In this document: piece after piece, positions 1 through 10,282 of the stretch
Layout: every line of letters starts with the position of its first letter
Numbering within the stretch: position 1 is the stretch's first letter
From: Lysobacteraceae bacterium
GTDB lineage: Bacteria > Pseudomonadota > Gammaproteobacteria > Xanthomonadales > Wenzhouxiangellaceae
Assembly: GCA_020201235.1 (NCBI GenBank)
Contig: JAIVHD010000032.1
Location: 1 to 10,282 of the forward strand
Length of the DNA stretch: 10,282 bases
Direction: 5' to 3'
Position numbers and translations under genes: made by a program
Notes under the pieces: model-generated
What the model was told of the DNA's origin: nothing
What the model saw: the letters and a program-made list of their open reading frames with translations, nothing else
The model's database searches: none

Positions 1-87
1 GAACCAGCAAAGACCAACCCAAACACCAAACCACCCATCCGTGCCGATATCGAGACACCGCGCTGCGCCTTAAAAAGAGCGCTTTTG

Positions 88-117
88 CCTACTTTTGAGG
101 TAACTGTCAAAAGTAGG
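88..117. repeat. Perfect 11-bp hairpin in module X, copy A
   Basis: CCTACTTTTGA (88-98) and TCAAAAGTAGG (107-117) are exact reverse complements separated by the 8-nt loop GGTAACTG. A poly-T run does not follow, so this does not look like a standard intrinsic terminator. Upstream lies AAAAAGAGCGCTTTT, a second imperfect palindrome. The same hairpin recurs at 483-512 and, split by an insertion, at 10025-10240. Confidence 0.9.
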
Positions 118-193
118 TCGCCCGCAAGCGCGCAGCGCGGGGCGAAACGCCTTTGACGTTTTGGGCTTGAGGTTCAAAAGTCGGGTTTCGCAG

Positions 194-327: not shown

Positions 328-482
328 AATAAAGGCGAGACCGAGGCAACCGCCAAAATCACCATGGCATCCAAGCACCGCAGCCCAGGTTTAAAGAACC
401 AGCGAAGACCAATCCAAACACCTAACCACCAACCCGTTCCGGCATGAAAACATCGTGCTGCGCCGTAAAAAGAGCGCTTTTG

Positions 483-512
483 CCTACTTTTGAGGTAATT
501 GTCAAAAGTAGG
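483..512. repeat. Perfect 11-bp hairpin in module X, copy B
   Basis: Same arms as copy A (483-493 and 502-512). The loop is GGTAATTG, one base different from copy A. The arms are unchanged while the loop varies, which fits selection on, or copying of, the stem. Confidence 0.9.
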
Positions 513-590
513 TCGCCCGCAAGCGCGCAGCGCGGGGCGAAACGCCTTTGACGTTTTGGGCTTGAGGTTGAAATGGCTCATTTTTCGCAG

Positions 591-787: not shown

Positions 788-840
788 CTACGCGGGTTAC
801 GGTTGGATTTGGTGGCCTGGGTCGGCGTTGTGCACCCGGG

Positions 841-929
841 TGTCCCGAGGCGGTTGCAAGCCCTTGTCTGCAGTGTTTCGCATCCGAATGCTCCGGAAGC
901 GGACTCACCCGTACGGTGAGGATGCGAGA
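841..929. mobile_element. Degraded copy of the hairpin (MITE-like) element, left junction
   Basis: This stretch aligns by eye with the first half of the intact element at 10036-10215. Shared landmarks in order are CGAGGCGGTT, CTGCAGTGTTTCGCA (intact copy CTGCGGCGTTTTGCA), TCCGGAAGC (intact copy CCGGAGGC) and GGTGAGGATGCG (intact copy GGTGAGCATGCG). CGCATCC (879-885) and GGATGCG (920-926) still pair, with CTCACC/GGTGAG inside, so a hairpin survives. No terminal inverted repeat remains. It ends flush with the stop codon of the sterol desaturase gene and may now serve as its transcript end; that role is inference. Confidence 0.6.
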
Positions 930-9660: not shown

Positions 9661-9779
9661 GAGCCCACCTTATTCACCACCCCACCTACTGTGGCACCGC
9701 CATACCCCGCGTCTGCAGCGTTTCGCTCTGTCACGCATCCTAACCGGACAGGCGAATACGCTTTCCAGTGCCTATGGCT
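9661..9779. mobile_element. Half copy of the hairpin (MITE-like) element, right junction
   Basis: This stretch matches the reverse complement of the right half of the intact element (10036-10215). Shared landmarks are TTATTCACCACCC (terminal repeat), CTACTG(C/T)GGC, CCCCGCGTCTGC(G/A)GCGTTT and ACCGGACAGGC(A/G)A(G/A)TACGC. The match is lost after about 9779, where the other arm would begin, and module Y repeat DNA takes over. The terminal-repeat end lies close to the lemA promoter region (start codon at 9596), so the element may contribute upstream sequence to lemA. Confidence 0.7.
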
Positions 9780-10024
9780 CGCCAAAATCCCCAGCGCTGC
9801 TTCCCGGGTGCACGCGCTACGCGGGTAATGGTTGGGTTTTGTGGCCTGGGTTGGCGTTGCGCACCCGGGGAATGAGGCGGGACCGGGGCAACCGCCGAAA
9901 TCAACATGGCATCCGAGCACCGCAGCCCAGGTTTCAAGAACCAGCGAAGACCAACCCAAACACCAAACCACCAACCGGTTCCGGCATGAAAACATCGTGC
10001 TGCGCCGTAAAAAGAGCGCTTTTG

Positions 10025-10240
10025 CCTACTTTTAACTCGGCTTATTCACCACCCGGTCGTCGCGAGGCGGTTCCAGGTCCTGTGGCTGCGGCGTTTTGCA
10101 ACCGAGCGCACCGGAGGCGTACTTGCCTGTCCGGTGAGCATGCGCTTGGCTGCAAAACGCCGCAGACGCGGGGCCTGGGGCCGCCGCAGTAGATCGGGTG
10201 GTGAATGAGCCGGGTTTAAGGTAACTGTCAAAAGTAGGTC
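10025..10240. repeat. Module X hairpin split by an insertion, copy C
   Basis: The left arm CCTACTTTT remains at 10025-10033 and the right arm TCAAAAGTAGG at 10228-10238. The palindromic element sits between them, just at the arm/loop border. In the other two copies these arms are separated by only 8 nt. Confidence 0.85.
10036..10215. mobile_element. Intact 180-bp palindromic MITE-like element flanked by TTAA
   Basis: The ends are inverted repeats: 10034-10055 and 10195-10216 match at 20 of 22 positions (core ATTCACCACCCG / CGGGTGGTGAAT). Inside, CTGCGGCGTTTTGCA (10086-10100) and TGCAAAACGCCGCAG (10151-10165) pair perfectly over 15 bp. The apex CACCGGA (10109-10115) pairs with TCCGGTG (10130-10136), with AGGC/GCCT inside. 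The whole element can fold into one long hairpin. TTAA flanks both sides (10032-10035, 10216-10219); deleting the element plus one TTAA recreates the uninterrupted module X with one G/A difference. It has no coding capacity, so it must be mobilised in trans if it moves at all. Confidence 0.82.
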
Positions 10241-10282
10241 GCCCGCAAGCGCGCAGCGCGGGGCGAAACGCCTTTGACGTTG

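Follow-up and report, generated by a model that had tools for sequence, protein, structure and literature searches.

The element and the repeat it interrupts

The window, i.e., the whole stretch of 10,282 nucleotides that was analyzed, is an entire contig (C343) of the incomplete assembly G000, which comprises 2.89 Mb in 439 contigs and is 83% complete. On its forward strand it carries at positions 10036–10214 a full-length copy of a 179-bp element, reading from CTCGGCTTATTCACC to GCCGGG, which is a MITE very probably mobilised by a transposase of the IS1380 family. It is classified as full-length by ends common to other copies, by a perfect 5-bp duplication and by its hairpin. The flank comparison (row L001) identified TTTAA as target duplication, with the left copy at 10031–10035 and the right copy at 10215–10219. 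The terminal inverted repeats lie at 10036–10057 (left, forward strand) and 10193–10214 (right, reverse strand); the left one agrees with the reverse-complemented right one at 19 of 22 positions. Both the sequence and the fold reveal a 15-bp perfect internal stem with the left side CTGCGGCGTTTTGCA at 10086–10100 and the right side TGCAAAACGCCGCAG at 10151–10165, both on the forward strand. The DNA fold of the hairpin reaches -82 kcal/mol, compared with a mean of -40.07 kcal/mol (sd 3.42) in 200 shuffles.

In the first-pass annotation the hairpin element was described as 180 bp long within 10032–10219, with terminal inverted repeats matching at 20 of 22 positions. The long hairpin and its terminal repeats are present at this place, while lining up other copies set the edges to 10036 and 10214, which gives a length of 179 bp and the 19 of 22 matches stated above. 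The 15-bp internal stem was described correctly, and so was the lack of an open reading frame, as 179 bp are too short for a sizeable gene and no transposase gene is encoded. Besides the full copy, the window holds two decayed MITE copies. The one at 9664–9795 (reverse strand) is truncated and diverged, covers about 130 of the 179 positions in the orientation opposite to the full copy and aligns locally with copy L024 with a score of 165 (shuffle maximum 24). The other, at 833–926 (forward strand), is a remnant of the internal part without ends (local alignment score 78, shuffle maximum 28).

The MITE interrupts a copy of a dispersed repeat on the forward strand (9922–10281, with the matches 9922–10033 and 10215–10281). 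An uninterrupted copy of the same repeat with the target site CCTACTTTTGAGG lies at 380–570 (forward strand) and served as query of the repeat search, and a second one, cut by the contig start, was found as a match to it at 1–174 (forward strand). The dispersed repeat is built around a CCTACTTTTGAGG...CAAAAGTAGG hairpin. Counting halves, the assembly contains 10 matches to it, several of which lie at contig ends. The window furthermore contains several CCCGGG-rich repeats of the GCGCAGCGCACCCGGG kind at 196–840 and 9793–9869.

Removal of the MITE and of one duplication leaves CCTACTTTTAAGG as the empty site in the repeat of the window. This is the sequence that had been inferred before from the two uninterrupted copies in the window; however, all five uninterrupted copies that are readable in the assembly (two in the window and one each on contigs C16, C304 and C246) read CCTACTTTTGAGG, and none of the five shows exactly the pre-insertion sequence. 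The interrupted repeat has an A where these five copies have a G, and therefore the A belonged to the repeat variant that received the insertion. The interrupted form was found in the window, on C16 (left half) and on C171 (right half), with shared variants within the MITE, and the right half on C171 possibly represents the same locus as the left half on C16. Since the interrupted form is present in the window and on C16/C171, the insertion was probably copied later together with its repeat as one unit. Most simply, the MITE inserted once into a variant repeat and the composite was then copied; that two insertions hit one repeat site independently is possible as well.

Copies in the genome and the target duplication

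A search of the whole genome, as it had been proposed along with the first description, revealed the MITE at 58 or more separate places, which are spread over 52 contigs and include fragments. The number was obtained by merging three genome searches and is a lower bound, as in two of these 40 candidates each were scored out of 234 and 258 from the first look, respectively. The 5-bp flanks agree perfectly in 21 of 54 end-pairs, including three alternative end calls of already counted copies, compared with 1.36% of cross-pairs that combine flanks of different copies. For the other lengths from 2 to 9 only 0, 1 or 2 of the 54 end-pairs agree perfectly; at 4 bp these are 2 of 54 versus 0.56% of cross-pairs. 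All 21 perfect pentamers fit the pattern N-T-N-A-N. Across the 54 end-pairs, T occupies pentamer position 2 in 44 left and 46 right flanks and A occupies position 4 in 48 left and 47 right flanks. On contig C390 two elements directly adjoin each other, with GTAAT between them and GTAAT following the second (L013).

The first-pass annotation had postulated a duplication of TTAA and had raised the question of whether TTAA or TA is always duplicated. The window copy has TTTAA, and across the copies the duplication comprises 5 bp of mostly N-T-N-A-N type; as the duplications follow this pattern and TTAA is the tail of TTTAA, the TTAA at the window copy is incidental. What stands is the more general claim of a discrete, non-autonomous inserted element with evidence of mobility, which is strongly supported by the at least 58 places, by 5-bp duplications far above the cross-pairs and by one element-free syntenic interval in relatives. 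Many copies have defined ends and duplications, and they also occur outside the larger repeat.

Two alternative origins were weighed against these data. A piggyBac-like element with specificity for TTAA would account for the TTAA found on both sides of the window copy, and in one paper, as far as its accessible text goes, IS1380 transposases form the outgroup of piggyBac (PMC10813416). Such an element is highly improbable given the comparison of duplication lengths, which speaks against a TTAA target with a 4-bp duplication, and given perfect pentamers such as GTCAG, CTCAG and TTGAC that contain no TTAA. There is even less room for the idea that the MITE belongs structurally to the larger dispersed repeat and is no separate element. 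Two or three repeat copies do carry the MITE at an identical position, but the five readable copies without it and the many MITE copies elsewhere with duplications of their own counter this idea, leaving it practically no probability.

Relatives and an empty orthologous site

The MITE query matched in 21 of 101 genomes including its own, none of the 21 from outside its bacterial family. Of the 28 relative loci that were fetched, 17 allowed both ends to be placed; 16 of these 17 are 178–180 bp long and one is 170 bp long. Perfect 5-bp duplications are present in eight of these 17 loci. Six of the eight targets fit N-T-N-A-N, whereas L074 and L091 show TTGGA and fall outside the rule. The latter two, from the genomes G017 and G021 of two species, are one and the same MITE copy without any difference, and their flanks are almost identical over at least 60 bp to the left and to the right, which indicates either an insertion common to both or shared DNA. 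Among named genomes, a pattern scan identified L142 from Wenzhouxiangella sp. DLM2.Bin32 as a true MITE copy, and the record contains the locus L094 (G023). A long hairpin in a Magnetospirillum MAG (L141, 3204–3366) has TTATTCACCACC at its ends and a stem with CCAAGACAC-type sequence; it shares TTATTCACCACC with the MITE and has no CCCG ends, and it was rejected as a member by eye. The exact 18-base MITE end had no match in viral contigs.

Empty orthologous sites, which had been suggested as a check of mobility, were sought by comparing seven joined empty sites with 43 genomes of the family. For one of the seven, copy L026, the flanks are conserved on both sides in two genomes of the same genus, G005 and G002, and the other six sites were uninformative. 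The interval between these flanks contains no MITE end within two mismatches in either genome, although the exact target pentamer is not alignable. It measures 238 bp in G005 and 214 bp in G002, compared with 374 and 378 bp for the own genome after subtraction of the element, and therefore other length changes occurred there too.

The ends point to IS1380 transposases

The first-pass annotation had assigned the element to no named family. To judge by sequence, both its ends and its duplications indicate a relation to the IS1380 family of insertion sequences. The literature offers a comparable duplication length: IS1247 is tabulated with a 5-bp repeat in the accessible part of PMC3281130, and the repeat of the IS1380 family is given as 4–5 bp in that of PMC12116815. 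The ends of IS1380 elements were determined independently of the MITE by an inverted-end search around 11 IS1380 loci (10 plasmid copies and the locus L045 from the family), in which the MITE sequence was not used and pairs were ranked by how well their ends match, a perfect duplication raising the score by 2. MITE-type ends were found in six of the 11 loci and perfect 5-bp duplications in four of the 11, all of them N-T-N-A-N; the remaining five loci show no clear MITE-type ends. In Halomonas sp. KO116 one IS1380 element is present on two plasmids with the duplications GTTAA and CTTAA and the ends CCCGCCTTATTCATGAGG and CCCGCCTTATTCACGAGG. The Pseudomonas putida locus has the duplication TTAAA and the ends CCCGGCTTATTCATGAGG and CCCGCCTCATTCACGAGG, and the Celeribacter indicus locus has the duplication TTTAT and the ends CCCGGTTTATTCATCC and CCCGCATTATTCGCCG, a pair that was ranked second with an end match of 12/18. 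At the Stenotrophomonas locus L189 and at L045 the ends are of MITE type and no perfect duplication is present. Common to the MITE and to the copies from Halomonas and Pseudomonas are ends that follow CCCGSCTTATTCAYG, with C in place of a T at one P. putida end, and a 5-bp duplication of the N-T-N-A-N type.

The IS1380 model NF033539 gave matches in 11 of 61 genomes, in five of them above the curated cut-off. Five full-length IS1380 loci of the bacterial family were examined (L045, L047, L048, L055 and L061), and only L045 has MITE-type ends. The ends of L055 and L061 are quite different from those of the MITE, and no MITE-type ends were found at L047 and L048, although their genomes G022 and G017 do carry the MITE. 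L045 from G023 scores 296.1 bits with NF033539 (cut-off 180) and has the inverted ends CCCACCTTATTCATC and CCCGCCTTATTCATC, flanked by the unequal pentamers CTTAT and CTGAG. The MAG contig that carries it is 3.1 kb long, its nearest relatives on plasmids are alphaproteobacterial with the best plasmid matches in Rhodobacterales, and the flanking reading frames look, by our own reading, like other transposase genes. L045 may be foreign to its MAG, by recent transfer or by a binning error. When its 80-bp ends were compared with MITE ends, 6 of 28 comparisons scored above the shuffle maximum, and 0 of 28 did so beyond the first 18 bp; there is no support for an origin of the MITE core, apart from the ends, in L045. 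The family genomes G034 and G031 contain single MITE-type ends near transposase fragments, with TTCAG and TTCAA outside.

In the assembly of the own genome (G000), no IS1380 transposase was found. A transposase with matching ends, which the first description had recommended looking for, thus turned up in some IS1380 elements of other bacteria and not in the own assembly. We nevertheless consider it highly likely that the element is a type-I MITE and that a DDE transposase of the IS1380 family, produced elsewhere in the cell, moves it; this mover is inferred, and the assembly, at 83% completeness, yielded no partner for the MITE. The four full-length family loci that lack MITE-type ends lower this likelihood slightly. 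Such a transposase would recognise the MITE ends (approximately CCCGSCTTATTCACC) and move the element, presumably by cut-and-paste, and the MITE would be joined to a staggered target of mostly N-T-N-A-N type, leaving the 5-bp duplication. The window copy would have entered the TTTTAAGG variant of the dispersed repeat, and the interrupted repeat was probably copied afterwards as a unit.

Conservation of the hairpin and strand preference

The fold was analyzed in an alignment with a mean column identity of 83%, which comprises 44 MITE copies, 43 of them distinct, and spans three genera of the family. RNAalifold yields 55 pairs, in which 92.4% of the cells are paired and of which 37 show changes on both sides, i.e., the hairpin covaries between its arms over the full length. 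Cells changed on both sides number 212, compared with 68.9 (sd 7.4) in shuffles, a comparison that is inflated by the relatedness of the copies, and with 19–44 in slid controls, which keep this relatedness; the structure was derived from the same alignment.

Wobble pairs were counted with a second pairing of 74 pairs that was set by Watson-Crick counts alone. It replaced an earlier pairing with one loop shifted by a base, and both pairings give the same direction. Among pair states common to at least three copies, G-T exceeds A-C with 32 versus 12, whereas rare pair states show 32 G-T versus 39 A-C. Positions with more G-T outnumber those with more A-C by 43 to 18, and by 42 to 19 in 31 representatives. 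In 43 of the 44 copies the written strand gives the more stable fold of the two, with a mean difference of 17.3 kcal/mol. No such preference would be expected of a cruciform, in which both strands take part. Strand preference and wobble bias in shared variants together suggest a strand-specific structural constraint.

Long palindromes are corrected by arm templating, and this seems to occur here too. In alignment columns 66–72 and 113–119 the segment GACCGAG forms the left side of an internal loop in 26 of 44 copies, its right side in 32 of 44 and both sides, which then are unable to pair, in 19 of 44. In six of the 44 copies, including that of the window, the right-arm segment reads TTGGCTG in place of GACCGAG, and by our own reading most of TTGGCTG can pair with the left arm, the outcome expected of arm-templated correction.

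Two explanations of the conserved arms therefore have to be considered. According to one, the arms stay complementary by mutual repair templating (quasi-palindrome correction) without any selection on the fold, which we regard as having somewhat less than an even chance. The TTGGCTG segment speaks for this explanation. The explanation does not predict, however, the one-strand excess of G-T over A-C among shared states, and the unpaired GACCGAG segments on both sides of the loop speak against it. According to the other, the whole 179-nt hairpin is selected, with one strand folding as RNA or single-stranded DNA and mattering to the spread of the element or to the host, and the IS1380-type ends are the vehicle only. 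The pairs changed on both sides, the G-T excess among shared states and the more stable written strand speak for it. It is weakened by the relatedness of the copies, whose counts are not independent events, by structures that come from the same alignment and by the correction that seems to occur as well. Moreover, no Rfam match at gathering score was found in the window, and the orientation of the MITE relative to tandem flanking genes shows no bias, with nine in the same and eight in the opposite direction according to crude gene calls. The latter comparison comprises 51 rows including one alternative end call, with 17 tandem, 11 divergent, 5 convergent and 18 undecided cases and one case inside an ORF. 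We hold this explanation only tentatively, and rate it below correction alone. Structural selection and arm-templated correction may both act.

A further, rather unlikely proposal combines mobility and fold: the success of an IS1380-driven MITE across at least three genera would depend on one strand folding into the 179-nt hairpin, and selection would act on copies that give rise to new copies and not after insertion.

Relation to known elements and implications

IS1380 elements such as ISEcp1/ISEc9 move antibiotic-resistance genes. IS1380 insertion sequences (IS1247; ISEcp1/ISEc9; the Halomonas sp. KO116 and Pseudomonas putida copies) are about 1.7 kb long and encode a DDE transposase, in contrast to the MITE described here. 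ERIC and Correia/NEMIS are, like the MITE, intergenic, imperfect palindromes over their whole length and present in many copies, but they differ from it in sequence, size, duplication and hosts. For ISEc9, the accessible text of PMC12116815 gives an end and an AGGCA repeat of another form than those of the MITE. MITEPye1, with ends like IS1182 (PMC11578231), and the TIMEs, with ends like Tn3 (PMC4133298), are in the available portions of these papers likewise short, devoid of a transposase, equipped with IS- or transposon-like ends and duplications, and foldable. Compared with these portions, the present MITE differs by the likely parent IS1380, by at least 58 places against one to three and usually one, by a near-constant length of 179 bp and by arms that covary over the full length. 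The accessible parts of PMC4133298, PMC3281130, PMC11578231, PMC3542288, PMC10813416 and PMC12116815 describe no IS1380-derived MITE. The literature search as a whole, which covered titles, the openings of abstracts and accessible texts, revealed no recognisable one, and a description elsewhere is possible.

The element is ordinary in kind and its folded core is the interesting part. With the present analysis a dispersed hairpin repeat of Wenzhouxiangella-type bacteria gains edges, a target rule and a likely transposase family. With a hairpin that covaries and is strand-biased, it becomes testable whether long-hairpin MITEs are palindromic by mutation alone or whether the folded strand is functional. 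If the proposal that success depends on the folding strand is true, this would be a case of strand-specific structural selection on a non-autonomous DNA transposon.
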